Shown here piece by piece: positions 41,037-53,418 of a stretch of 64,000 nt of DNA (position 1 is the stretch's first letter; every line of letters begins with the position of its first letter). A program made the position numbers and the translations under genes. This DNA is from Leptolinea sp. HRD-7 (GTDB lineage: Bacteria; Chloroflexota; Anaerolineae; Anaerolineales; Anaerolineaceae), in NCBI GenBank assembly GCA_024363285.1, contig AP024710.1, forward strand, positions 2,078,001 to 2,142,000, written 5' to 3'. The notes under the pieces are model-generated. The model was given only the letters and a program-made list of their open reading frames with translations, had not been told where the DNA came from and made no database searches.

Positions 41037-42104
41037 TTACTCGACTGTGATCCCGCTTCCGGTTTCCACGAAGCCGATCTCCCAGACTGGTTGATCCATC
41101 GCGGAAGCTTTTAATATAAATTCATCCACCCTGTCTTCCGGGACGCTCATCAGCAAACCGCCGCTGGTCTGCGGGTCAAACAACAGCATACGGCGCTGTT
41201 CTTCAATGCCATCCGCGAAGGTGACGTTACCGCCGAAGAATTCTTTATTGTCAAAAGCGCCGCCGGGGAAGGTTTCCATGCGCGCGTACTTCATGGCGCC
41301 ATCCAAAAGCGGGAATTTATCCATAGAAAAGCGCATTCGCATACCGCTGGCTTTACCCATTTCCGCGGCGTGACCAAGCAGACTATAGCCGGTGATATCC
41401 GTAGCGCCAAGCAGGTCAACTGCCCTTGCCAGCCGGGATGCATCGCGGTTCAGGCGTTTCATCCAGCCTACCGCCTGTTCAAGATCAGCCGGGTCAACTT
41501 TCTCACGTTTCAACGCGGTGGTGGTCACACCAAAGCCCAGCGGTTTGGTGAGGAAAAGCCGGTCACCGGATTTCGCTCCGGCTTTGGTGAAGCTCTGCCC
41601 ATGAGGGACAAACCCCAGTACCACCAGCCCGAACTTGGGTTCTTTATCCTGCACAGTGTGACCGCCAGCGATCACCACACCGGCTTCGCGGGCTTTTTCC
41701 GCTGCTCCTCGGATGATCTCGGCGGATATTTCAACCGGAAGATTGGGGGGCAGGGCGGCCACATTCAATGCCAGGAAGGGTTCGCCACCCATGGCATAAA
41801 TATCAGACAGGCTGTTGGCAGCCGCAATCGCCCCGTAATCGTACGGGTCATCCACAACCGGGGTGAAAAAATCGGTTGTGACGACCAGATCGCGGGTGTC
41901 ATCCAGTTTCCAAACCGCGGCATCATCCGGCGAATCCAACCCGACCAACAGATCAGGGAAGGACATCGCGCCGAACGTGTCTTTAACCGGGCGCAGAACC
42001 TGCGCCAACGCTTGCGCGTTTAGTTTGGACGCTCAACCAGCGCAACTGGATAAGGTAGTGAGCCGGACTTCTTTTCCGGATGTGGAATGAATGGCATTAT
42101 CCAT
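41037..42104 (-). CDS. selD: Selenide, water dikinase (SelD), itself a predicted selenoprotein
   Basis: Makes selenophosphate from selenide and ATP for Sec-tRNA synthesis. Reading from ATG 42104, the N-terminus is EVRLTTLSSCAG, then UGA at codon 24, then ASKLNAQALAQVLRPVKDTFG. This aligns with E. coli SelD, where Cys17 and Lys20 are essential: UGA takes the Cys place and Lys27 the Lys place. With UGA read as Sec the protein is 355 residues, the normal length. Downstream motifs include DDAAVWKLDD, AANSLSDIYAMGGEP and GGHTVQDKEPKFG. A -10 box (TACAAT) ends seven bases before this ATG, supporting the start. A call from TTG 42008 would lack the active site. Confidence 0.93.
41990..42006 (-). promoter_or_regulatory. 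SECIS-like hairpin in selD
   Basis: On the mRNA, GGCGCA-GGUUC-UGCGCC forms a perfect 6-bp stem with a five-base loop. The loop starts about 32 bases after the UGA, in the range reported for bacterial SECIS elements. Its tip (GCAGGUUCUGC) closely resembles the GCAGGUCUGC tip of the E. coli fdhF SECIS, recognised by SelB. Confidence 0.8.
42033..42035 (-). other. In-frame UGA predicted to encode selenocysteine (selD codon 24)
   Basis: This TGA is in frame with both the conserved SelD N-terminus upstream and the whole SelD body downstream. It occupies the position of the catalytic Cys and is followed by a SECIS-like hairpin. Confidence 0.9.
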
Positions 42105-42111
42105 GCAACAA

Positions 42112-42117
42112 ATTGTA
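42112..42117 (-). promoter_or_regulatory. -10 box of selD (leaderless)
   Basis: TGTTACAAT (extended -10 and hexamer) on the minus strand, seven bases before the selD ATG. No ribosome binding site is present, so the transcript should start at or next to the ATG. Confidence 0.55.
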
Positions 42118-42119
42118 AC

Positions 42120-42893
42120 ATGGCCAATTTATCTGTACCAACACAGCGGGATGTCCCGTGGATTTTTCTATCTCCGCATCTGGATGATGCGGTGTTTTCG
42201 TGCGGTGGACTGCTTTCATATCTCGCGGAACAGGGGGTTCCTACAAAGATTGTGACGGTATTTTCTGAACAAATCTCCGATCCCGCTGATTTCACCGAAT
42301 ACGCGCGGACATTGCATGCGCGCTGGGAGACCGGTGATGATCCGTACCGCATCCGCAAGCAGGAAGATTCAAATGCCTGCCGACTGCTGGGCGCGGAACA
42401 GGTCCATCTCGGTTTCCATGATTGCATTTACCGTACATTACCGGATGGTTCGCCGGTTGTTTCATCTGATGAAGAATTATTCGGTGAGATCAAACCGGGA
42501 GAAGATGCCCTTATCCGGCGGGTGACTGAAAGGATCGCCGGGATCACCAATGGTAAACACGTTTGTGTGTGTCCTCTGGGTTTGGGTCACCATATAGACC
42601 ACCAGATCACCCGGCGCGCGGCGGAAATGTCACTGAAACCATTGTATTACGCCGATCTGCCGTACGCATTGAGTCTTCCAATACAGGTGCTAGCTGGCAT
42701 GACACGTCTTTCTTTCAATATTCCAGATCGGAACGCGGCAGAATGGGCCAGGGCCAATCTAATGTACGCCTCCCAGATATCAACTTTCTGGAAAAGCCCG
42801 CTCGATATGGTTGACCAGTACAACGCCTTTTTGGAAGCCTACAACGGTTGGCCGATGTGGATGGAAGTACCTGAACCGGAAGGGGAGAAGTAG
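42120..42893 (+). CDS. PIG-L/LmbE family deacetylase
   Basis: A 257-residue zinc-dependent N-deacetylase homologue. LSPHLDDAVFSCGG near residue 18 gives the His and Asp-Asp zinc/catalytic residues, and LGLGHHIDHQITRRA near 155 the second His pair. The family deacetylates GlcNAc-containing small molecules or glycans. It is divergent from selD, with only 15 bases between starts; an ATG at 42087 would overlap selD. No ribosome binding site favours either start. The substrate is unknown. Confidence 0.85.
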   Translation: MANLSVPTQRDVPWIFLSPHLDDAVFSCGGLLSYLAEQGVPTKIVTVFSEQISDPADFTEYARTLHARWETGDDPYRIRKQEDSNACRLLGAEQVHLGFHDCIYRTLPDGSPVVSSDEELFGEIKPGEDALIRRVTERIAGITNGKHVCVCPLGLGHHIDHQITRRAAEMSLKPLYYADLPYALSLPIQVLAGMTRLSFNIPDRNAAEWARANLMYASQISTFWKSPLDMVDQYNAFLEAYNGWPMWMEVPEPEGEK

Positions 42894-42897
42894 TCTA

Positions 42898-42906
42898 TGC
42901 TATACT
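42898..42906 (+). promoter_or_regulatory. Extended -10 promoter of the GlmL/membrane module
   Basis: TGCTATACT, an extended -10 plus hexamer, lies just after the PIG-L stop and ends eight bases before the ATG at 42915. No -35 is evident. Confidence 0.55.
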
Positions 42907-42914
42907 TTTCTCAT

Positions 42915-43163
42915 ATGAATCCAACCCGATCAGCCTCCACGGAATCGATCGCTGCCCCGACTGATCCAGACAATACCGTTTTTTCCGGCGCTTTGTTGGA
43001 TGAACTTTCACCCTTTGGTATTTTCCTCTCGCAATTTTTATATCTCGGCAGCTGGTTGTTTCCCTCAAACAGACTGCCAGATTCGCTTCGAAAGTTGGCA
43101 GAACGGTTTGAAGGGTCCCAATCCGGGTCGTCAAACGAGAAGGAGACCGATGGTCGCCTTTGA
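42915..43163 (+). CDS. Possible small protein (82 aa) or leader
   Basis: An open frame from the first ATG after the extended -10 box, overlapping the next gene by 14 bases. The peptide starts polar (MNPTRSASTESIAAPTDPD) and has one short hydrophobic stretch (FGIFLSQFLYLGSWLF), then a charged tail. Composition is protein-like and a leaderless start is possible, but no family is recognised and the frame could be chance. If noncoding, this is a 235-base leader of the membrane module. Confidence 0.4.
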   Translation: MNPTRSASTESIAAPTDPDNTVFSGALLDELSPFGIFLSQFLYLGSWLFPSNRLPDSLRKLAERFEGSQSGSSNEKETDGRL

Positions 43164-43905
43164 TAGTCTCATTGGTCTGATGATCATCGGACTTGCCACT
43201 GCTCTTATGCTGGTTTTTTCCGCGCAGGCCCGCCGGTCACCGCTGCCTGTGCGTCCGATCAAAGCCATGGAGCATCTCGCGCGGATCGTAGGATTGACCG
43301 TGGAAGACGGCCGACGAATTCATATCAGCTTTGGCCGGGGGGACTTCCTTGATTCGCATGCCGCCTCAACGGTTACCAACACAGGATTGTTAAAGGAAAT
43401 ATTGAAACGTTCGGCCGGAAGTGACCGGCCGCCATCAATTACCTCGGGTGACGGACTTTCAACATTGCTGGCGGTCGATACACTGTATTCTTCCCGACAG
43501 GGTGGAATTTCGCCTGATCGGATCGACGCGAGGCGTGGACGGCTGGCGGGGACTACTCCGATGTCCTTCGCGGCTGGTGTTTTACCGGCTCTGCAATCGG
43601 AGCAAACATCCATGTTCATAGCCGGCGGTATGATCGGTGCTGAGCTCAGCCTCATTCTGGATTCAGCGGAGGATGAGTCGGTCAGTATTCTTGCCGCGCC
43701 CGATTCCCCGGTCGGGCAGGCTGTTGCTTTTGCCAAGCCGGTGGATGTTTTGCTGGGTGAGGAAATTTTCGCGTTACCGGCATATCTGAACATGGGGAGC
43801 ATTTACGCTGCCAGCCTTCTGGCACAGGACGCGTTACGCTGGATTCTGATCATCTTCCTTGTCATGGCCGCGATACTCCGCGCCATTGGGTTAACCTTAT
43901 TATGA
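43150..43905 (+). CDS. Membrane protein, DUF6754-like
   Basis: A 251-residue protein with an N-terminal helix (LIGLMIIGLATALMLVFSA), a soluble domain of about 175 residues, and a C-terminal helix (WILIIFLVMAAILRAIGLTLL). The soluble part includes RIHISFGRGDFLDSHAASTVTNTGLLKEI, and GGMIGAELSLILDSAEDESVSILAAPDSPVGQAV. I associate it with DUF6754 from memory. AAGGAG five bases ahead of ATG 43150 fixes the start. It is the first secure gene of a tightly packed module ending at 50639 and overlaps the next gene by four bases. Confidence 0.78.
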   Translation: MVAFDSLIGLMIIGLATALMLVFSAQARRSPLPVRPIKAMEHLARIVGLTVEDGRRIHISFGRGDFLDSHAASTVTNTGLLKEILKRSAGSDRPPSITSGDGLSTLLAVDTLYSSRQGGISPDRIDARRGRLAGTTPMSFAAGVLPALQSEQTSMFIAGGMIGAELSLILDSAEDESVSILAAPDSPVGQAVAFAKPVDVLLGEEIFALPAYLNMGSIYAASLLAQDALRWILIIFLVMAAILRAIGLTLL

Positions 43906-44522
43906 AAGCTCCACTGACCACAATTGTTTCTATTCTAAGTGGCTTGATCGTACTACTGGCCTATTTTGTTCCGTTTGGACCACTGGGTGATGTTAGCTAT
44001 GTGATTATCAACTGGGCGGTTTCGTTGTCCGGTGTCGCTGTGGTGGCGGCAATAGTCTCACTGCTGGCCGCACACTGGCAGAAGGTCCGGACCAGGCGGC
44101 CGTCTGATCGCTATAGTCTACTGGTCATCTTTGGGTTCGGGTTGGTGTTTCTTGCCGGTCTGGTTTTTGGTGGTCCGGGTAATCTGGAGGTTCAGCATAT
44201 TGTCACCGGGATAATACTACCGATTGAAGGCGGTTTGTTGGGCGCGTTGGCGATAGGTCTTACTGTGGCTGCTCTTCGTCTCTACCGGGCCAGGCGCGGC
44301 TGGATGACCATAGTTTTTGGTATCTCTACGTTGTTATTTGTATTGTTAAACAGCGGTATTTTTACAACCAGTCTGGATATCCCCCTGATTAAGAACGCTC
44401 TGGGAATTCTACAACGGCTGCCGGATGCCGGCGGGCGTGGGATTTTGCTGGGTTTGGCGTTGGGTGCCATTACAGCGGGAATTCGGGTCATTCTGGGTGT
44501 GGATCGGCCATATAACGGGTAG
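43902..44522 (+). CDS. Six-helix membrane protein of unknown function
   Basis: A 206-residue hydrophobic protein with around six helices, starting IVSILSGLIVLLAYFVPFGPLG. A cytoplasmic loop holds the basic HWQKVRTRRPSDR and another RLYRARRGW. No transport or enzyme motif is seen. It overlaps the DUF6754-like gene by four bases and ends one base before the next ATG, so the three are coupled. Confidence 0.78.
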   Translation: MKAPLTTIVSILSGLIVLLAYFVPFGPLGDVSYVIINWAVSLSGVAVVAAIVSLLAAHWQKVRTRRPSDRYSLLVIFGFGLVFLAGLVFGGPGNLEVQHIVTGIILPIEGGLLGALAIGLTVAALRLYRARRGWMTIVFGISTLLFVLLNSGIFTTSLDIPLIKNALGILQRLPDAGGRGILLGLALGAITAGIRVILGVDRPYNG

Positions 44523-44523
44523 T

Positions 44524-46512
44524 ATGAAAAACGAGATCGTTTGCCCCAATTGCGGAAAAATCAACCCTCTGACAGCTGAGTTTTGCTCTGAGTGTCTGAC
44601 GCGTTTTCCTCCGCAGCCTCAAGAACCGGCAGAACCACCTGATTGGCTGAAAAAGATTCGTGAACGCAGTCAGGCAGAACGACCGCCGACACCACCATTG
44701 GGTGAATTTGGTGAAGCGGAAGAACGTCCATTTGGAGAAAAAATCGATTCTCCCGATGAAATTCCGGATTGGCTGAAGCAGATACAACCCGGTGAATCGC
44801 CATCTAAACCAAAAGAAGAAGAACCGTCGACGGATTGGATGTCGCGTCTTCATGAATTGCTCCCTCCGCAGGAGGGTAAACCGACCGGGCAATCAACAAC
44901 CCTGTATTCGGAAGAAGAATTGGCTGCCATGGCGGCGGCTGCCCGGCGGTTCAACGAGTTGCGTCAGGAACCACCTGAACAGGGTCCAACTCAACCACTG
45001 GGACTTCCATCGGAAGAGCCGCCATCTGACTTTGTCTATGAGCCTTCTTCCCTGGAGGAAGATCGTTTCTTCGGCGGTCCCGCGCAACCGGAGCCACTAT
45101 CTGCCGAGGAGCAGCCGGTAGATCAAATTCCTAACGTGGATGGTCCACAGGGAGGCCAGACCTCACCGGAAGAGATTGAACCCGTCATTTCCGTTCCGGA
45201 AATTCCGGTCTCCCCTATTGAAGGGCAGTCCAATGAGTATGTTCCATGGCTGAAAGAACCGGCATCCGGAACTCCTGTTATACCCGCCATGGAAGCCGCG
45301 CCAGAGTCAGTGCGTGAAATAGAACCGCCTGCTGTGGAAAAACCGGGTAAAAAGAAAAAATCCACACCCGAAACCGAGCCGCAAACGGAAGAAGGTTCTT
45401 CGGGGCAAGAAATTTCGACAGCCTCTCTCGAATCCCTGATAGGTGAAGAAACCCTGCCTGAGCAAGATAACCGGCAGGTTGGAAAACCAGAAAAACTGAT
45501 CCCTGAAAGCATATTGCAGCCGCGCTATGACCGTCCCGCGGAACTCTCCGGGCGGTTAGAGATCAGCGAAACGCAAAAAGCCAGTATTGACCTGTTGAAG
45601 ACTATGCTGGCCGGCGAGATCCAACCGGCCGGACCCGTAAGAAAAGCTTCTAGAGTCAGTAACCGGATTTTTCGCTGGGGAATCGGAATTCTTCTTCTGG
45701 CTGTGATGCTATTTCCGCTGATTACCGGATATCTGTTGACGGGGCAACAGGTGTTGTTCTCTCCGGGAGTGGTGGCCATGCATAACACGGTGAAATCTCT
45801 TCCCGATAACTCCCTGATCCTGGTGATCAATGATTATGAACCGGCATTCGCCGGCGAAATGAAGGCTGCATCCGCCGGGGTGGTTGACAATTTGATGATG
45901 AAAGGTATGAATTTCTCCATTCTGTCAACCGTTACCACAGGACCGGCATTAGCCCGGGATCTGATAACATATGTTCGCCCGGCCGGTTTTGGTTACCAGC
46001 CGGAAAAGATCGCCTATCTTGGCTACCTTCCCGGCGGCTCTACTGGCATGCTGGACTTTATCCGCAATCCACGCTCTGCGATGCCTTTGTTGGATACCGG
46101 CCGCTATGGATGGACGTACCCTGCCACTCAGTCGGTTCATACGATTCAGGATTATGCGGCGATCTTAATCATCACAGAAAATTCAGAGATCGGCCGTGCC
46201 TGGCTGGAACAGCTTTATTCGTATGTGCCTGAGAAACCAATAATGATGGTGATTTCAGCCCAAAGTGCTCCTTTAATGAGGCCATATCTTGATTCATCTC
46301 AACTGAAAGGCTTGATAGGCGGGAGGGTGGAAGGCGCCATGTATGACCGCATCATGGAAGCGCCTGCCCGTTATCCGGCTGTCAACTCGGCTTATCAAGC
46401 GGGTATGTTACTTGCGGCGACTTTAATTGCTATGGGTGGTGTTTTTGGAATTTTCCACGCGTTGATTAACCGCCGCCCACCGGCGCCCATGGAGGACCGG
46501 CATGTCGGCTGA
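44524..46512 (+). CDS. Zinc-ribbon membrane protein with long disordered linker
   Basis: A 662-residue protein. Residues 4-25 form a zinc ribbon, CPNCGKINPLTAEFCSEC. Next come about 350 residues rich in Pro and Glu with repeated short DWLKKI/DWLKQI and EEEPS-type segments, likely disordered, and two basic patches. A membrane helix is near 385-405 (WGIGILLLAVMLFPLITGYLL). A folded outer domain of about 220 residues follows, then a final helix (GMLLAATLIAMGGVFGIFHALI). ATG 44524 is preferred because 33 upstream codons overlap the preceding gene. The role is unknown; the ribbon may bind nucleic acid or a partner protein. Confidence 0.78.
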   Translation: MKNEIVCPNCGKINPLTAEFCSECLTRFPPQPQEPAEPPDWLKKIRERSQAERPPTPPLGEFGEAEERPFGEKIDSPDEIPDWLKQIQPGESPSKPKEEEPSTDWMSRLHELLPPQEGKPTGQSTTLYSEEELAAMAAAARRFNELRQEPPEQGPTQPLGLPSEEPPSDFVYEPSSLEEDRFFGGPAQPEPLSAEEQPVDQIPNVDGPQGGQTSPEEIEPVISVPEIPVSPIEGQSNEYVPWLKEPASGTPVIPAMEAAPESVREIEPPAVEKPGKKKKSTPETEPQTEEGSSGQEISTASLESLIGEETLPEQDNRQVGKPEKLIPESILQPRYDRPAELSGRLEISETQKASIDLLKTMLAGEIQPAGPVRKASRVSNRIFRWGIGILLLAVMLFPLITGYLLTGQQVLFSPGVVAMHNTVKSLPDNSLILVINDYEPAFAGEMKAASAGVVDNLMMKGMNFSILSTVTTGPALARDLITYVRPAGFGYQPEKIAYLGYLPGGSTGMLDFIRNPRSAMPLLDTGRYGWTYPATQSVHTIQDYAAILIITENSEIGRAWLEQLYSYVPEKPIMMVISAQSAPLMRPYLDSSQLKGLIGGRVEGAMYDRIMEAPARYPAVNSAYQAGMLLAATLIAMGGVFGIFHALINRRPPAPMEDRHVG

Positions 46513-47176
46513 TATGATCTGGACTACCGTCGCGTTCATTCTCACCCTGGTTGTCATCCTGGCTTATTTTCTCGGTGAGAGAAACCCTGTGTTTAACGTC
46601 ATATCGAACCTGTTTATTGGCATAGCCGCTGGATATGCGGCGTTAGTGGTGATCTTTCAGGTCATCTATCCGCGGTTAATTGTGCCGGTGATGTTCCCGT
46701 CACTCGGATATTCGCGCGCTCTGGCACTTGTCCCCTTGCTGCTGGGTTTTCTTCTGCTGTTCAAGAGTTTCCCACGGCTATCAAAAATCGGTAACCTGGC
46801 AACCGGGTTGATTGTGGGGGCGGCAGCCGGTGTGATCATTGGCGGCGCGGTACTGGGTACCCTGTATGCTCAATCGAAAGCGGCCATTTCGTTGTTTGAT
46901 CCTGTCACCGGTATTCAATCGGGAAAGCTGGTCGATTCGATATTTATGTTGATTGGAACCATCGCCACATTGGCCTACTTCCAGTTTGGCGGCATCCGCC
47001 GCCCGGGGAAGGTGATTGAACGCCCGAAAGCCACCCGATTTCTGGCTAATCTGGGTAAATTCTTTATCGCCGTCACTTTGGGCGCGTTATTTGCCGGCGT
47101 GATTTCTGCTACTATGGCCGTCCTGGCAGAGCGGCTCAGTTTTCTCGTTATGGTTGTTCAGTTATGGATGCGGTGA
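46502..47176 (+). CDS. Membrane protein of unknown function (about six helices)
   Basis: A 224-residue polytopic protein overlapping the previous gene by 11 bases. Helices begin at TTVAFILTLVVILAYFLG, VISNLFIGIAAGYAALVV, ALVPLLLGFLLLF, LATGLIVGAAAGVIIGGAVLG, IFMLIGTIATLAYFQFG and FFIAVTLGALFAGVISATM. One loop has the basic RPGKVIERPKATR. No family is recognised. Three bases separate it from the GlmL-like gene. Confidence 0.78.
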   Translation: MSADMIWTTVAFILTLVVILAYFLGERNPVFNVISNLFIGIAAGYAALVVIFQVIYPRLIVPVMFPSLGYSRALALVPLLLGFLLLFKSFPRLSKIGNLATGLIVGAAAGVIIGGAVLGTLYAQSKAAISLFDPVTGIQSGKLVDSIFMLIGTIATLAYFQFGGIRRPGKVIERPKATRFLANLGKFFIAVTLGALFAGVISATMAVLAERLSFLVMVVQLWMR

Positions 47177-47179
47177 AAT

Positions 47180-48907
47180 ATGATGCCAAATGAGCAATTT
47201 GCCGAATCCATTCTGTCAATTGATATCGGTTCGGTCAATACACGGGCGGTATTATTTGATGTGGTCGGCTCTTCCTATCGCATGTTATCAGCCGGGTACG
47301 CGCCGAGCACTTTTCAAGCGCCTTTGCTAGACGCGTTAGAAGGTGTATCGGCAGCCATCCGCAATCTGGAACAAAATACCGGCCGGGTGATACTCGATGC
47401 CAGCCACAGCCTGATCATACCTACATCAGAAACAGGCGAGGGGGTTGACCATATTCTGGTCACCAGCTCAGCCGGTATTGATGTGCGCATTGTGACAATC
47501 GGCCTGTTGGAAGAGTATTCGTTGGCCTGTGTTGAATCGCTGGCTGCCAGAACGTATTCCAGGGTTGTTGACCGATTTTCGTTGAACGATCCACGCAAAC
47601 CAGAAGACCGATTGAACGCATTTATTCAGGCGTCACCTGATCTGGTCATTCTGGCCGGAGGAACTAACCGGGGTGCCAGCCGGTCTGTTTTGAAAATGAC
47701 CGAACAATTACATCTCTGGCTGCAGGCGTGTCAAAAAGAAAAGCGCCCGGCTGTGCTATTTGCGGGAAACGAGAACCTAAAAGACCGTGTAACCGAATTA
47801 TTAAGCAGCCTGACAAAAGTACATACATCGCCCAATGTGATGCCTTTTTCTGAGACAGAAGATACCGGTTCCGCAGAAGAGAATCTCACCCGGGTATTAA
47901 ATTCCATCCGGGCTGCCAGAATGGCAGGATTTGCTGACCTTGAAAAAGTCAGCGGGTCACAGATCTTGCCCACGGCTGGCGCGGAAGCCAGGATTATCCG
48001 GTTTGAAAGCCTTCAGCAGGATCCAGAATTGACAGTATTCGGTGTGAATGTTGGTTCCGCCGCGTCTCACATGATCGCATCGATCGATGGAGAAATGCGA
48101 ACAAATGTATACCGCGGATTGGGCGTTGGCCAGGCCGCGGCAGAAACCCTGAAGAATGTAGGTTTGGAAGCGATCACCCGATGGATTTCGCTGGATATTC
48201 CTGATAACCTGGTTCGTGATTACCTTTGGCAGAAATCTCTTTTTCCAGCCGGTCTGCCAATGGATAATGAGACCCTCGAGATCGAACAGGCTTTGGCACG
48301 GGCAATCCTCTTTGACATGAAGCGGCGGTTTACCGGAATGTCGAACAATCTGCTTCCTTATAGTGAACCGATCCTGGTCAGCGGAGCGGTGATAGCCCAG
48401 GCTCCCGCGTTACAACAATCCCTTCTGATGATACTCGACGGTTTACAGCCGGCCGGTGTTACCACCATTCTATGTGATCGATTTGGAGTTCTTCCGGCTC
48501 TTGGTTCAGCGGCTGCTGTCAACCCGGCTATGGTTGTTCAGGTGCTGGAATCGGGAGTGTTAACAAATCTGGGGACGGTAATTTCACCAGAGATCAAGGC
48601 TAAGCCAGGTGAACCGGCGTTGCGTGTCCGCCTGAATGAGGAAGACGGACCAGAAAAACTTTATGAAATTTGCCAAGGTGATATTGTCCGGCTTCCATTG
48701 ATGATTAACAAACCGGCAAAATTGACCATCAAACCATTGAAACACATGGAGGCGTTCCCGGGTTCAAAGAACCTTCGCGTTGTCGGTGGAGAACTGGGTG
48801 TAGTTATTGACCTTCGCGGCCGTCCGTTATCCATACCATCCGACCCTGAAACCCGAAGGAAAACCTACCTGCACTGGCAAAATACTTTGAAGGAGTGTCT
48901 CGGATGA
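47180..48907 (+). CDS. GlmL/MutL-like ATPase of the actin/Hsp70 fold
   Basis: A 575-residue protein of the glutamate mutase L family. The phosphate-1 motif SILSIDIGSVNTRAVLFDVV is near residue 9, with a second nucleotide segment VFGVNVGSAASHMIASIDGE near 285 and the adenosine-type LVSGAVIAQAPALQQSLLMILDGL near 405. In clostridia MutL/GlmL lies between the two glutamate mutase subunits and is thought to act as a chaperone. No cobalamin mutase gene is present here; the neighbours are all membrane proteins. A role as assembly ATPase of that module, similar to PilM/FtsA-type proteins, is an inference. Confidence 0.85.
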   Translation: MMPNEQFAESILSIDIGSVNTRAVLFDVVGSSYRMLSAGYAPSTFQAPLLDALEGVSAAIRNLEQNTGRVILDASHSLIIPTSETGEGVDHILVTSSAGIDVRIVTIGLLEEYSLACVESLAARTYSRVVDRFSLNDPRKPEDRLNAFIQASPDLVILAGGTNRGASRSVLKMTEQLHLWLQACQKEKRPAVLFAGNENLKDRVTELLSSLTKVHTSPNVMPFSETEDTGSAEENLTRVLNSIRAARMAGFADLEKVSGSQILPTAGAEARIIRFESLQQDPELTVFGVNVGSAASHMIASIDGEMRTNVYRGLGVGQAAAETLKNVGLEAITRWISLDIPDNLVRDYLWQKSLFPAGLPMDNETLEIEQALARAILFDMKRRFTGMSNNLLPYSEPILVSGAVIAQAPALQQSLLMILDGLQPAGVTTILCDRFGVLPALGSAAAVNPAMVVQVLESGVLTNLGTVISPEIKAKPGEPALRVRLNEEDGPEKLYEICQGDIVRLPLMINKPAKLTIKPLKHMEAFPGSKNLRVVGGELGVVIDLRGRPLSIPSDPETRRKTYLHWQNTLKECLG

Positions 48908-49956
48908 CGTACGCTCCCGTAGTTCATTATCTCCGTCAGACCAACATCCGGCGTGAACGATTATTGGATGTACCCGGCCGTGTACTGGTTTCGCCGGGAC
49001 AGAAAGTTACCTCAAATGACATCGTAGCCGAATCCGCTAATCCTACCGGACATTTCTTTATGGATATCCGGAAGTTGTTAAAAGTGGATACTGAAACCGC
49101 GGATAAATTGATCCAGCGCAAGAAAGGTGAGCGTTTAGAGAAGGGCGATATACTTGCTGAAACCGGAGGCGCGTTTTCACGGGTTGTTCGTGCTCCGGTG
49201 AATTGTCTGGTTACAGAGATCAATGCGGGTGTGATGATCATGGAAACCCATGGTGAACCTGTTCGGATAGAAGCCGGTCTCCCGGGTTTCGTTCGTGAAT
49301 TGAAAGGTGAATTTGGAGTCATAATAGAATCAGGTGGTGCTCTGGTTCAAGGTGTCTGGGGGAATGGACGAATAAATGCCGGCCCGATTGTTGTTCTCTG
49401 CGATTCGCCAGAACAGGAGTTGACCATCCGCCAGTTGGAGGGTTGTGCCCGTGGTTCTATTGCTGTGGGTGGTTACTGTTATACCGGTGAAGTGTTTCGT
49501 CAGGCTTCTGAGATGCAATTGAACGGGCTGGTATTATCGGCTATTAACCCGGAACTGGTTGAACTGGCTGAAAACCTGAGCTTTCCACTAGTATTAATAG
49601 AAGGATTTGGCAAGATCCCATTAAATGAGACAGCTTTTAATATTTTCCGTGAATATGAAAAACGTGACGCGGGAATCAATGCGATGAAATGGGACCAATT
49701 TTCCGGAAACAGGCCGGAAATCTTGATACCATTCCAGAATCAAGCATTACAACCACCGGAAGTAGACAAATTTGCTCCCGGTCAGATTGTTCATATAAAA
49801 TTGCCTCCCCATTTTGGGGAAGTTGGCACGATTCTTGAACGGTATGATGCTCAGATCAACCTTCCGAACGGGCTGCGCGCACCCGCCGCGGTGTTGCGTA
49901 AACAAAATGGAGATCGCATCACGGTTCCTCTGGCTAATCTGGAGTTGATCATCTAG
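48904..49956 (+). CDS. Barrel-sandwich/KOW-like protein linked to the GlmL-like ATPase
   Basis: A 350-residue soluble protein that starts within the stop of the GlmL-like gene (ATGA), with AAGGAG eight bases upstream. The N-terminal 130 residues resemble a lipoyl/RnfC-type barrel-sandwich: PGRVLVSPGQKVTSNDIVAES, KGERLEKGDILAETGG and RVVRAPVNCLVTEINAGVMIM. The middle has IAVGGYCYTGEVFRQASEMQLNGLVL. The C-terminus has a small KOW-like barrel, GQIVHIKLPPHFGEVGTILERY. There is no Lys in the usual lipoyl-attachment context. It may be a scaffold or membrane-fusion-like subunit. Confidence 0.78.
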   Translation: MTYAPVVHYLRQTNIRRERLLDVPGRVLVSPGQKVTSNDIVAESANPTGHFFMDIRKLLKVDTETADKLIQRKKGERLEKGDILAETGGAFSRVVRAPVNCLVTEINAGVMIMETHGEPVRIEAGLPGFVRELKGEFGVIIESGGALVQGVWGNGRINAGPIVVLCDSPEQELTIRQLEGCARGSIAVGGYCYTGEVFRQASEMQLNGLVLSAINPELVELAENLSFPLVLIEGFGKIPLNETAFNIFREYEKRDAGINAMKWDQFSGNRPEILIPFQNQALQPPEVDKFAPGQIVHIKLPPHFGEVGTILERYDAQINLPNGLRAPAAVLRKQNGDRITVPLANLELII

Positions 49957-49988
49957 GGGTTGCCCACCCGGATACAGGAGAAGAAAAC

Positions 49989-50639
49989 ATGTCATACCCT
50001 GATAACCAAAACCAATATCAAGATTTCGACGAATACGAAGGTGACGATCTCTCTGGCGAACAAGAAGCTAAGCCAAATAATAAAACCTTCTTCGTATCCT
50101 TTGCACTGATCGCGGTTATATTCGCGCTTACACTGGCGGCTCTGGCTTTTGTTGTATTTTATGTTTTACCTCAATCCCGAGCCAAACGTGAAGCACAGAA
50201 TATCCAAATTTACGCGGCTAATACGGCTACAGCTCTGGCTGCCACTCAACTTTCTGAGAGTCTGGCACTGGCGGCTGCCGCGACGGAAGAACCAACCGCT
50301 ACCATTGCCCCTACTTTTACTCAACTCCCAACATACACCGCCACTCCTGAATTGCAGGAGATCGCGATTGAGCCCTCAGTAGAAGTTACACCAGAAAACG
50401 CACAGGGTGGAAGCGACCCGGGCGCCGGTTTAGGTGACAGCCGAACAGCAACGCTGGCCGCTCTGCAGACTCAAGCCGCGGCTGCTCGTCTTACGGCTAT
50501 AGCGGAAGGACGGACTACCACTGCGCTGCCCACTACCGGTATTATGGATGGGATAGGATTTCCGGGTGCGGTCGGTCTAACTGTAGTGCTGGGGTTGGTG
50601 ATCGTTGCCTCACGCAAATTGCGCTCATCCAACAACTAG
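49989..50639 (+). CDS. Bitopic protein with LPTTG-type C-terminal sorting signal
   Basis: A 216-residue protein, last of the module. The first 32 residues are acidic and polar, followed by a membrane helix at about 33-60 (FVSFALIAVIFALTLAALAFVVFYVL). Then comes an Ala/Thr-rich stretch with TATIAPTFTQLPTYTATPE. The end reads LPTTGIMDGIGFPGAVGLTVVLGLVIVASRKLR: a sortase-like LPxTG, a hydrophobic helix and a basic tail. No cleavable signal peptide is obvious. No sortase gene is in the window. A ribosome binding site (AGGAGAAG) precedes ATG 49989. Confidence 0.75.
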   Translation: MSYPDNQNQYQDFDEYEGDDLSGEQEAKPNNKTFFVSFALIAVIFALTLAALAFVVFYVLPQSRAKREAQNIQIYAANTATALAATQLSESLALAAAATEEPTATIAPTFTQLPTYTATPELQEIAIEPSVEVTPENAQGGSDPGAGLGDSRTATLAALQTQAAAARLTAIAEGRTTTALPTTGIMDGIGFPGAVGLTVVLGLVIVASRKLRSSNN

Positions 50640-52200: not shown

Positions 52201-53418
52201 TTACCCCTGGGTAGTGGGGGATAGCGTGGGTGTGTCTGATGGTATGGGTGTGGCTGTTATCAGCACCGATTGTAACACCCACCCTTCGATTCCGTCGGGG
52301 CTTTTTACATGCACCCAGGTCTTTCCATCCGCCTGGGTAGCTTCGGGCAAAAGTTCCAAGGGACTGCCATTCAAAAGACTTTTGATCAGGCTGCCTTCAT
52401 ACCCGGGTGTTTTTCGGATAAACGCGCCGCCGCCAGTCTCCGCTGACATCCACGCGCGCACCGGTGTGGATGTAGGGGTAAATGTTTGAGTAGGGGTATT
52501 TGTGGGTGCCGGAGTGGGTGAAATGGTGGGTGTAGCTGTTGGTGGAATCCTGGTGCGTGTAGGTGTTCGCGTGGCTGTGGGAACCGGTGTGGCTGTAGGA
52601 ATGAGTGTTGGCAGAGCTACCTGAAAATGGCGGGCGGTTTCAACACCACTAAACGCGACTACAGCGCACAGCCCGACCAGAACTGCCGAAGTTCCAATGG
52701 TGTACCCCAGATTGATCATTGGCCGTAATCCGGTGAGGGCCAGTACCGCCACTCCAATTAACACAGAAGCGGCCAGGTATACGCTGAAGACCAGCAGTCC
52801 ATCTGGCCATAACCCTTTGCTGCCGGTCATTACTCCATAACCCGCAACTCCTAAAGGAAGATAGAGCTCATAGATTAGCGCGATATTGGTTACCTGAAAA
52901 CGGTTCTTTTCATTGTTGCGCACAATAAACAGGGTAGTCAGAGAGGAACCCAGGAAGAGCAAAAGAAAGTCATACCAGGCAAAGTGCGCGTGTAAATACG
53001 CATGCTGAACAATAATGTTATCTTGCTGTAAGGCGACCAATCCACCCAGAGCACCGCCAATAAATACCAGTGCCGCGCCAGCCAGGGTGGAGATCAATTC
53101 GCGGAGAAAGAACTTCTTTGACCCGATGATGGAAGCCAGCGAAAGCCCGATCACCGGTGAAAGGAATGGCGCGGTAAGCGCGGCCAACACAAACAGCGAC
53201 GGGGTATTAATTAAGGCTGCCAGTCCTGATATCAAACCGCAAATAAATGAAAAAACCAAAAAATCAAAAGAAGGTGTTAACCGAATGACGAGTTGCTCCA
53301 GCATGGCTACCTGTTCGTCCGTGGTATCTGGCGCAAGGAGCCGCCGTTGACGTCGCCGACGGGCCGGAGGCAGCATAGAATCTTCAGGCGGAAGGGGTTC
53401 GCTGGTAGGAAGGCTCAT
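52201..53418 (-). CDS. DUF389-like membrane protein with extracellular SH3-type domain
   Basis: A 405-residue fusion. After a cytoplasmic basic N-terminus (ARRRRQRRLL), eight or so membrane helices contain LAALTAPFLSPVIGLSLASIIGS, characteristic of DUF389. A Thr/Pro linker of about 55 residues (PTATPVPTATRTPTRTR and similar) leads to a bacterial SH3 domain: GGAFIRKTPGYEGSLIKSLLNGSPLEL and GKTWVHVKSPDGIEGWVLQSVL. The SH3 domain may bind cell-wall material. A second short Thr/Pro tail ends the protein. The start overlaps the HAD gene stop by four bases. Confidence 0.85.
   Translation of the reverse strand: MSLPTSEPLPPEDSMLPPARRRRQRRLLAPDTTDEQVAMLEQLVIRLTPSFDFLVFSFICGLISGLAALINTPSLFVLAALTAPFLSPVIGLSLASIIGSKKFFLRELISTLAGAALVFIGGALGGLVALQQDNIIVQHAYLHAHFAWYDFLLLFLGSSLTTLFIVRNNEKNRFQVTNIALIYELYLPLGVAGYGVMTGSKGLWPDGLLVFSVYLAASVLIGVAVLALTGLRPMINLGYTIGTSAVLVGLCAVVAFSGVETARHFQVALPTLIPTATPVPTATRTPTRTRIPPTATPTISPTPAPTNTPTQTFTPTSTPVRAWMSAETGGGAFIRKTPGYEGSLIKSLLNGSPLELLPEATQADGKTWVHVKSPDGIEGWVLQSVLITATPIPSDTPTLSPTTQG

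Follow-up and report, generated by a model that had tools for sequence, protein, structure and literature searches.

Results

Seven genes in one direction

The window, the whole 64,000-nucleotide stretch of DNA analysed here, belongs to a 3.79 Mb genome (G000) that lies within the Chloroflexota and has its nearest relatives, among the sampled genomes, in the Anaerolineae. An open reading frame check identified seven frames on the + strand at 43150–50639 that overlap or are separated by short gaps, as the original prediction had described, with two starts corrected. The DUF6754 gene was reassigned to the ATG at 43150 (the start reported earlier, 42915, is not a conserved gene start) and the tether gene to the ATG at 44524, directly past the stop of the preceding gene. 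Bases 42915–43149, the 235 positions at the head of the original span, contain just a frame of 83 aa that lacks conserved homologs; the small frame at 42897–43163 likewise had none. An Rfam search returned no match, and promoter and terminator scans were near background. The features are as follows.

43150..43905, +: DUF6754 protein, 251 aa; transmembrane (TM) helix, predicted cytoplasmic alpha/beta domain (Rossmann/DHS-like), TM helix; PF20539 E 1.2e-16; model pLDDT 93.0; basic residues after TM1
43902..44522, +: TM6a, 206 aa, predicted to have six TM helices, without a known family
44524..46512, +: zinc-ribbon tether protein, 662 aa; zinc ribbon, disordered linker, TM helix, predicted extracytoplasmic alpha/beta domain, TM helix
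44542..44595, +: zinc ribbon (CPNC...CSEC) of the tether
44638..44649, +: PDWL motif copy 1 (PPDWLKKI) of the tether
44764..44775, +: PDWL motif copy 2 (IPDWLKQI) of the tether
44830..44844, +: possible degenerate third PDWL copy (TDWMSRL) of the tether, identified by eye only
45643..46473, +: conserved TM, predicted extracytoplasmic alpha/beta domain and TM of the tether; profile of 37 relatives; model pLDDT 89.9
46502..47176, +: TM6b, 224 aa, predicted to have six TM helices, without a known family
47180..48907, +: actin-fold ATPase of the MutL family, 575 aa; residues 11–457 form the MutL core, and a conserved C-terminal domain bears the signature GVVIDLRGRPL
48895..49956, +: barrel-sandwich hybrid/KOW protein, 353 aa from a GTG start, with the ATG at 48904 as the alternative
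49989..50639, +: small twice-anchored protein, 216 aa; LPTTG at 50526–50540

The family calls made in the original prediction were upheld: DUF6754 and MutL were assigned by Pfam, and the zinc ribbon and barrel-sandwich assignments were supported. A KOW assignment was supported too; like the barrel-sandwich one, it came mainly via relatives. Six helices were predicted for each of the two proteins described as six-helix proteins, TM6a and TM6b. The disordered linker, put at 350 residues, is present and spans approximately 340 residues from the zinc ribbon to the first membrane helix.

The ATPase belongs to the MutL branch but is not GlmL

The window ATPase matched Pfam MutL (PF13941) with an E value of 9.6e-52 and 176.7 bits (cut-off 27) over profile positions 1–447 of 450, which places it in that family. 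Its scores for GlmL were far below the cut-offs (78 bits against 475 for NF040745 and 42 against 204 for TIGR01319), whereas true GlmL proteins of Chloroflexota score 586–610 on NF040745. The MutL core is shared with GlmL/MutL proteins, but the module ATPase carries an extra C-terminal domain of approximately 115 residues, has no adjoining mutase, and forms a separate clade. In the tree, nine GlmL-type proteins were split from 26 module ATPases with 100/100 support; owing to the length of several module branches, relationships within the module ATPase group are unsure. The low scores, the extra domain, and the separate clade indicate that the module ATPase is not GlmL.

Gene context points the same way. 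True GlmL genes adjoin methylaspartate mutase genes on plasmids of Prevotella, Rhizobium, and Peptoclostridium and in the Chloroflexota genomes G040 (L229) and G230 (L230 and L231); the loci with mutase genes beside true GlmL are L223–L225 and L229–L231. Both ATPase types, GlmL and module, are carried by G040 and G072. No mutase gene was found in the module neighborhood, and no methylaspartate (glutamate) mutase E subunit scored over the cut-off in the host genome or in 19 other Chloroflexota genomes. The earlier argument that the usual explanation for GlmL is inapplicable, there being no cobalamin mutase nearby, therefore stands, and a GlmL role for the module ATPase is ruled out by its sub-cut-off scores, the lack of a mutase, the extra domain, and its position in the tree. 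The label "glutamate mutase L", a likely misannotation, can be removed from a family that over half of the sampled Chloroflexota genomes carry.

Phosphate motif 1 is kept in 29 of 30 ATPases. The Asp of the second phosphate motif, present in 26 of 30 relatives, is replaced by Asn290 in the window ATPase, which suggests that this protein may bind ATP without hydrolyzing it; hydrolysis is uncertain in this species.

The protein encoded next to the ATPase produced PDB profile matches to NqrA and NusG/Spt5, and its relatives matched KOW in 8 of 30 cases and RnfC_N in 6 of 30. The barrel-sandwich part is held in common with RnfC and NqrA, but a C-terminal KOW motif takes the place of further RnfC parts and the central region is unmatched.

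Two alpha/beta domains are predicted on opposite faces of the membrane

The DUF6754 protein scored 61.1 bits (cut-off 27) against PF20539, a domain of unknown function, and is a member of that family. In the structure models for this protein (pLDDT 93.0) and the tether ectodomain (pLDDT 89.9), an alpha/beta domain lies between two membrane helices. Transhydrogenase domain III is among the DHS-like domains that the DUF6754 model resembles (Z about 9–12), and the two models share a loose set of Rossmann/DHS-like lookalikes (CODH epsilon, MT0777; Z 8–12). Values of Z 8–12 are common for such folds; therefore, these matches were not used to assign function. PDB profile searches of both domains returned nothing significant. 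Sequence kinship between the two was also considered, and none was detected (hhalign probability 2%).

The distribution of basic residues suggests how the domains are oriented. DUF6754 proteins have 0.8 basic residues before helix 1 and 4.4 after it, so the alpha/beta domain is probably cytoplasmic; tethers have 2.7 before the helix and 0.8 after, so their domain is probably outside. Alignments of TM6a and TM6b matched no RnfA/E or NqrD/E family at E 0.01, and their near-invariant residues include no cysteines.

The tether linker carries a repeated PDWL motif

Tethers carry up to 38 copies of the motif [ED][LV]PDWLxxL on a linker predicted to be disordered. The consensus, [ED]-[LV]-P-D-W-L-x-x-[LMI], was derived from 815 instances in 118 proteins. 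Linkers range from <100 to >1,000 residues, and the number of P-[DESAN]-W-[LMIV] copies in them runs from 0 to 38 with a median of 6; 762 copies were seen in linkers compared with 10.2 after shuffling. Motif density was 8.27 per 1000 residues, compared with 0.09 in neighboring unrelated proteins, so that PDWL can be regarded as a feature of this system in the loci covered. It also occurs in two ATPase C-tails. The window tether has only two clear copies, and at least three lineages (L063/L067/L068/L100, L071, and L079/L209) retain the module with no PDWL in their tethers. Residues lost together with the motif were found in 8 of 112 conserved columns of the ATPase, 8 of 68 of the partner, and 4 of 41 of TM6b, with no preference for the ATPase. 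No papers on the module, PDWL, DUF6754, or GlmL in Chloroflexi were found in the open-access literature, which most subscription journals lie outside.

A two-gene core and a full form across Chloroflexota

Searches with profiles built from relatives identified the order DUF6754, TM6a, tether, TM6b, ATPase, barrel-sandwich protein in approximately 40 sampled loci of many Chloroflexota families, which excludes a chance arrangement. Conservation of the neighborhood, claimed at the outset, thus extends to the first six genes. Two findings had been named beforehand as fatal to the original prediction, an ATPase always beside mutase genes and a neighborhood not conserved in relatives; what was found is an ATPase with no mutase gene near it and a recurring gene order.

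Presence was surveyed as profile matches over 301 Chloroflexota genomes. The ATPase profile, which also picks up a few true GlmL proteins (e.g., G230), matched 180 of the 301; the barrel-sandwich profile matched 178, or 171 once seven matches near E 1e-4 were removed. Both were present in 166 genomes, the ATPase alone in 13, the partner alone in 5, and neither in 117 (18 discordant; Fisher p 3.6e-61, genomes being counted without regard to shared ancestry). The tether ectodomain was found in 69 genomes and DUF6754 in 67, with both in 66, neither in 231, and 4 discordant (shared ancestry uncorrected), and every tether-bearing genome also had the ATPase. The seven genes had been described as a single module; the persistent part is the ATPase with its barrel-sandwich partner, and in most core-bearing genomes the four membrane genes went undetected. 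By sequence, the core consists of a MutL-branch actin-fold ATPase distinct from GlmL and a barrel-sandwich/KOW protein, to which the full form adds DUF6754, TM6a, the tether, and TM6b. Chloroflexia also keep the barrel-sandwich gene, although at a distant chromosomal site, and in G259 the two core genes are megabases apart (320,939 and 4,096,274).

Many families have a reduced form in which just the ATPase and barrel-sandwich genes are adjacent, often with a zinc-ribbon protein upstream. Several of these zinc-ribbon proteins bear PDWL-type motifs; their C-terminus is a membrane helix in L066 and L200 and a basic aromatic tail, for example KKRGGWRRIFGR, in L189–L194. Similar basic tails (e.g., RKGWFRRK) end the ATPases of L074–L078. 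By analogy with FtsA, the tails on ATPases and reduced-form tethers may be membrane binding.

In a profile search of genome contigs, the best 80 matches were all from Chloroflexota, and the barrel-sandwich protein had no match on plasmids. The module is absent from one Anaerolineae family (f5) and from a small-genome family (f58) that we take to be Dehalococcoides and kin. It is present in G372, which we take to be C. aggregans.

A candidate peptide-docking assembly at the membrane

The actin-fold proteins PilM and FtsA each have an IA-IC cleft in which a short cytoplasmic peptide docks, supplied by the membrane proteins PilN and FtsN, respectively (PMC7613929). Repeated Trp-containing peptides on a tether encoded beside an actin-fold ATPase, kept in the reduced form, suggest a similar logic here, and we propose a working principle of the PilM/FtsA kind, with differences in ATPase branch, repeats, and membrane proteins. 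The original prediction, which suggested an envelope-spanning assembly, had likewise compared its logic with that of PilM- or FtsA-based machines. The repeated short motif on a membrane-anchored tether adds something tangible to that comparison; membership by sequence was not found, as the ATPase had no PilM_2 or FtsA match in the Pfam scan and its PilM match in the PDB profile search was sub-threshold (E 0.024). The module also differs in having up to 38 peptide repeats and a long linker, and it lacks pilin, platform, and FtsZ genes.

It is plausible, though we hold it tentatively, that the module is a cytoplasmic-membrane assembly of Chloroflexota in which the PDWL tether brings the ATPase and its partner to the membrane complex. 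The two core proteins would form a soluble complex on which PDWL peptides dock, more likely on the ATPase than on the partner, and the docked peptides would hold one or several copies of that complex at the membrane, much as PilN and FtsN peptides hold PilM and FtsA. By binding and hydrolyzing ATP, the ATPase could then determine which state the DUF6754/TM6a/tether/TM6b membrane complex adopts, and the alpha/beta domains on opposite faces might relay a signal or force from the cytoplasm to the outside. Where only the reduced form exists, the zinc-ribbon/PDWL protein would anchor alone through its C-terminal membrane helix or basic amphipathic tail. This reading is favored by the conserved gene order, the co-occurrence of the core proteins and of DUF6754 with the tether, the enrichment of PDWL in linkers, the basic tails, the conserved phosphate motif 1, and the opposite orientation of the two domains. 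Counting against it are the lineages that keep the module without PDWL, the two clear copies in the window tether, the lack of a preference for the ATPase among residues lost with the motif, the sub-threshold PilM match, and Asn290. Chloroflexota, whose cell biology is little known, gain a defined gene set and a testable candidate binding motif. If docking does occur, MutL-branch ATPases, known as enzyme reactivators, also became a membrane-bound machine, like the FtsA/PilM branch. A bolder form of this proposal, in which we place less confidence, is a new trans-membrane machine across much of Chloroflexota: the repeat tether would gather many MutL-branch ATPases and drive or gate the four-protein complex, possibly within the unusual envelope of these bacteria or their cell-cell connections.

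The ATPase might instead be a reactivase or chaperone, acting in GlmL fashion on another, perhaps membrane-bound, enzyme with the barrel-sandwich protein as substrate or adaptor. GlmL/MutL is the closest characterized family by sequence, and the ATPase and barrel-sandwich protein are the pair that persists, but no conserved candidate client enzyme lies beside them in the loci examined. With the host genome lacking a mutase E subunit, the ATPase clade separate and bearing an extra domain, and tethering to the membrane by motif repeats not a known feature of GlmL, we consider this reading unlikely.

An FtsA-like scaffold, in which the ATPase polymerizes under the membrane and organizes cell-wall growth, septation, or multicellular filaments, would account for the basic, amphipathic-looking tails on some ATPases and the multivalent tethers, and the absence from family f58 fits. 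Absence from family f5 speaks against it, as does the module in G372. In favor of a scaffold, Chloroflexales are known to have septal channels with an unknown genetic basis, but none are clear in C. aggregans (PMC7332563). We consider such a role improbable. An Rnf/Nqr-style redox or transport complex, in which a barrel-sandwich subunit would join two six-helix subunits and alpha/beta domains that bind nucleotides, is very improbable despite the likeness to RnfC/NqrA and transhydrogenase domain III: TM6a and TM6b match no Rnf/Nqr family and lack near-invariant cysteines, the tether has no known cofactor motif besides its zinc ribbon, and an actin-fold ATPase is foreign to Rnf/Nqr.

The small downstream protein and flanking genes

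Orthologs of the small protein (49989–50639) occupy the same place in most Anaerolineae sampled. It had been described as an LPTTG bitopic protein anchored at the surface. The window protein does have LPxTG, a membrane helix, and a basic tail, and the genome encodes a sortase; however, a membrane helix lies at each end, and LPxTG is found in only 65 of 102 homologs, so the sortase motif is not their conserved feature and the claim of a surface-anchored component is not sustained. Sortase anchoring of this protein is weakly indicated. The feature that the homologs have in common is TGFADEVGLPGL together with a membrane helix and RRLR.

Near the module, on the opposite strand, is a selD-like gene (selenide, water dikinase; 41037–42008, −) that scores above the TIGR00476 cut-off; no selenocysteine tRNA was found within the window. 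A PIG-L deacetylase gene (42087–42893, +) lies directly upstream of the module, and one is also upstream in L081 (10121–10813), a locus of the same family, and not in the other sampled loci. Beyond the module, the gene at 52201–53418 (−) encodes a DUF389-like stretch, just under the cut-off, fused to a bacterial SH3 domain.
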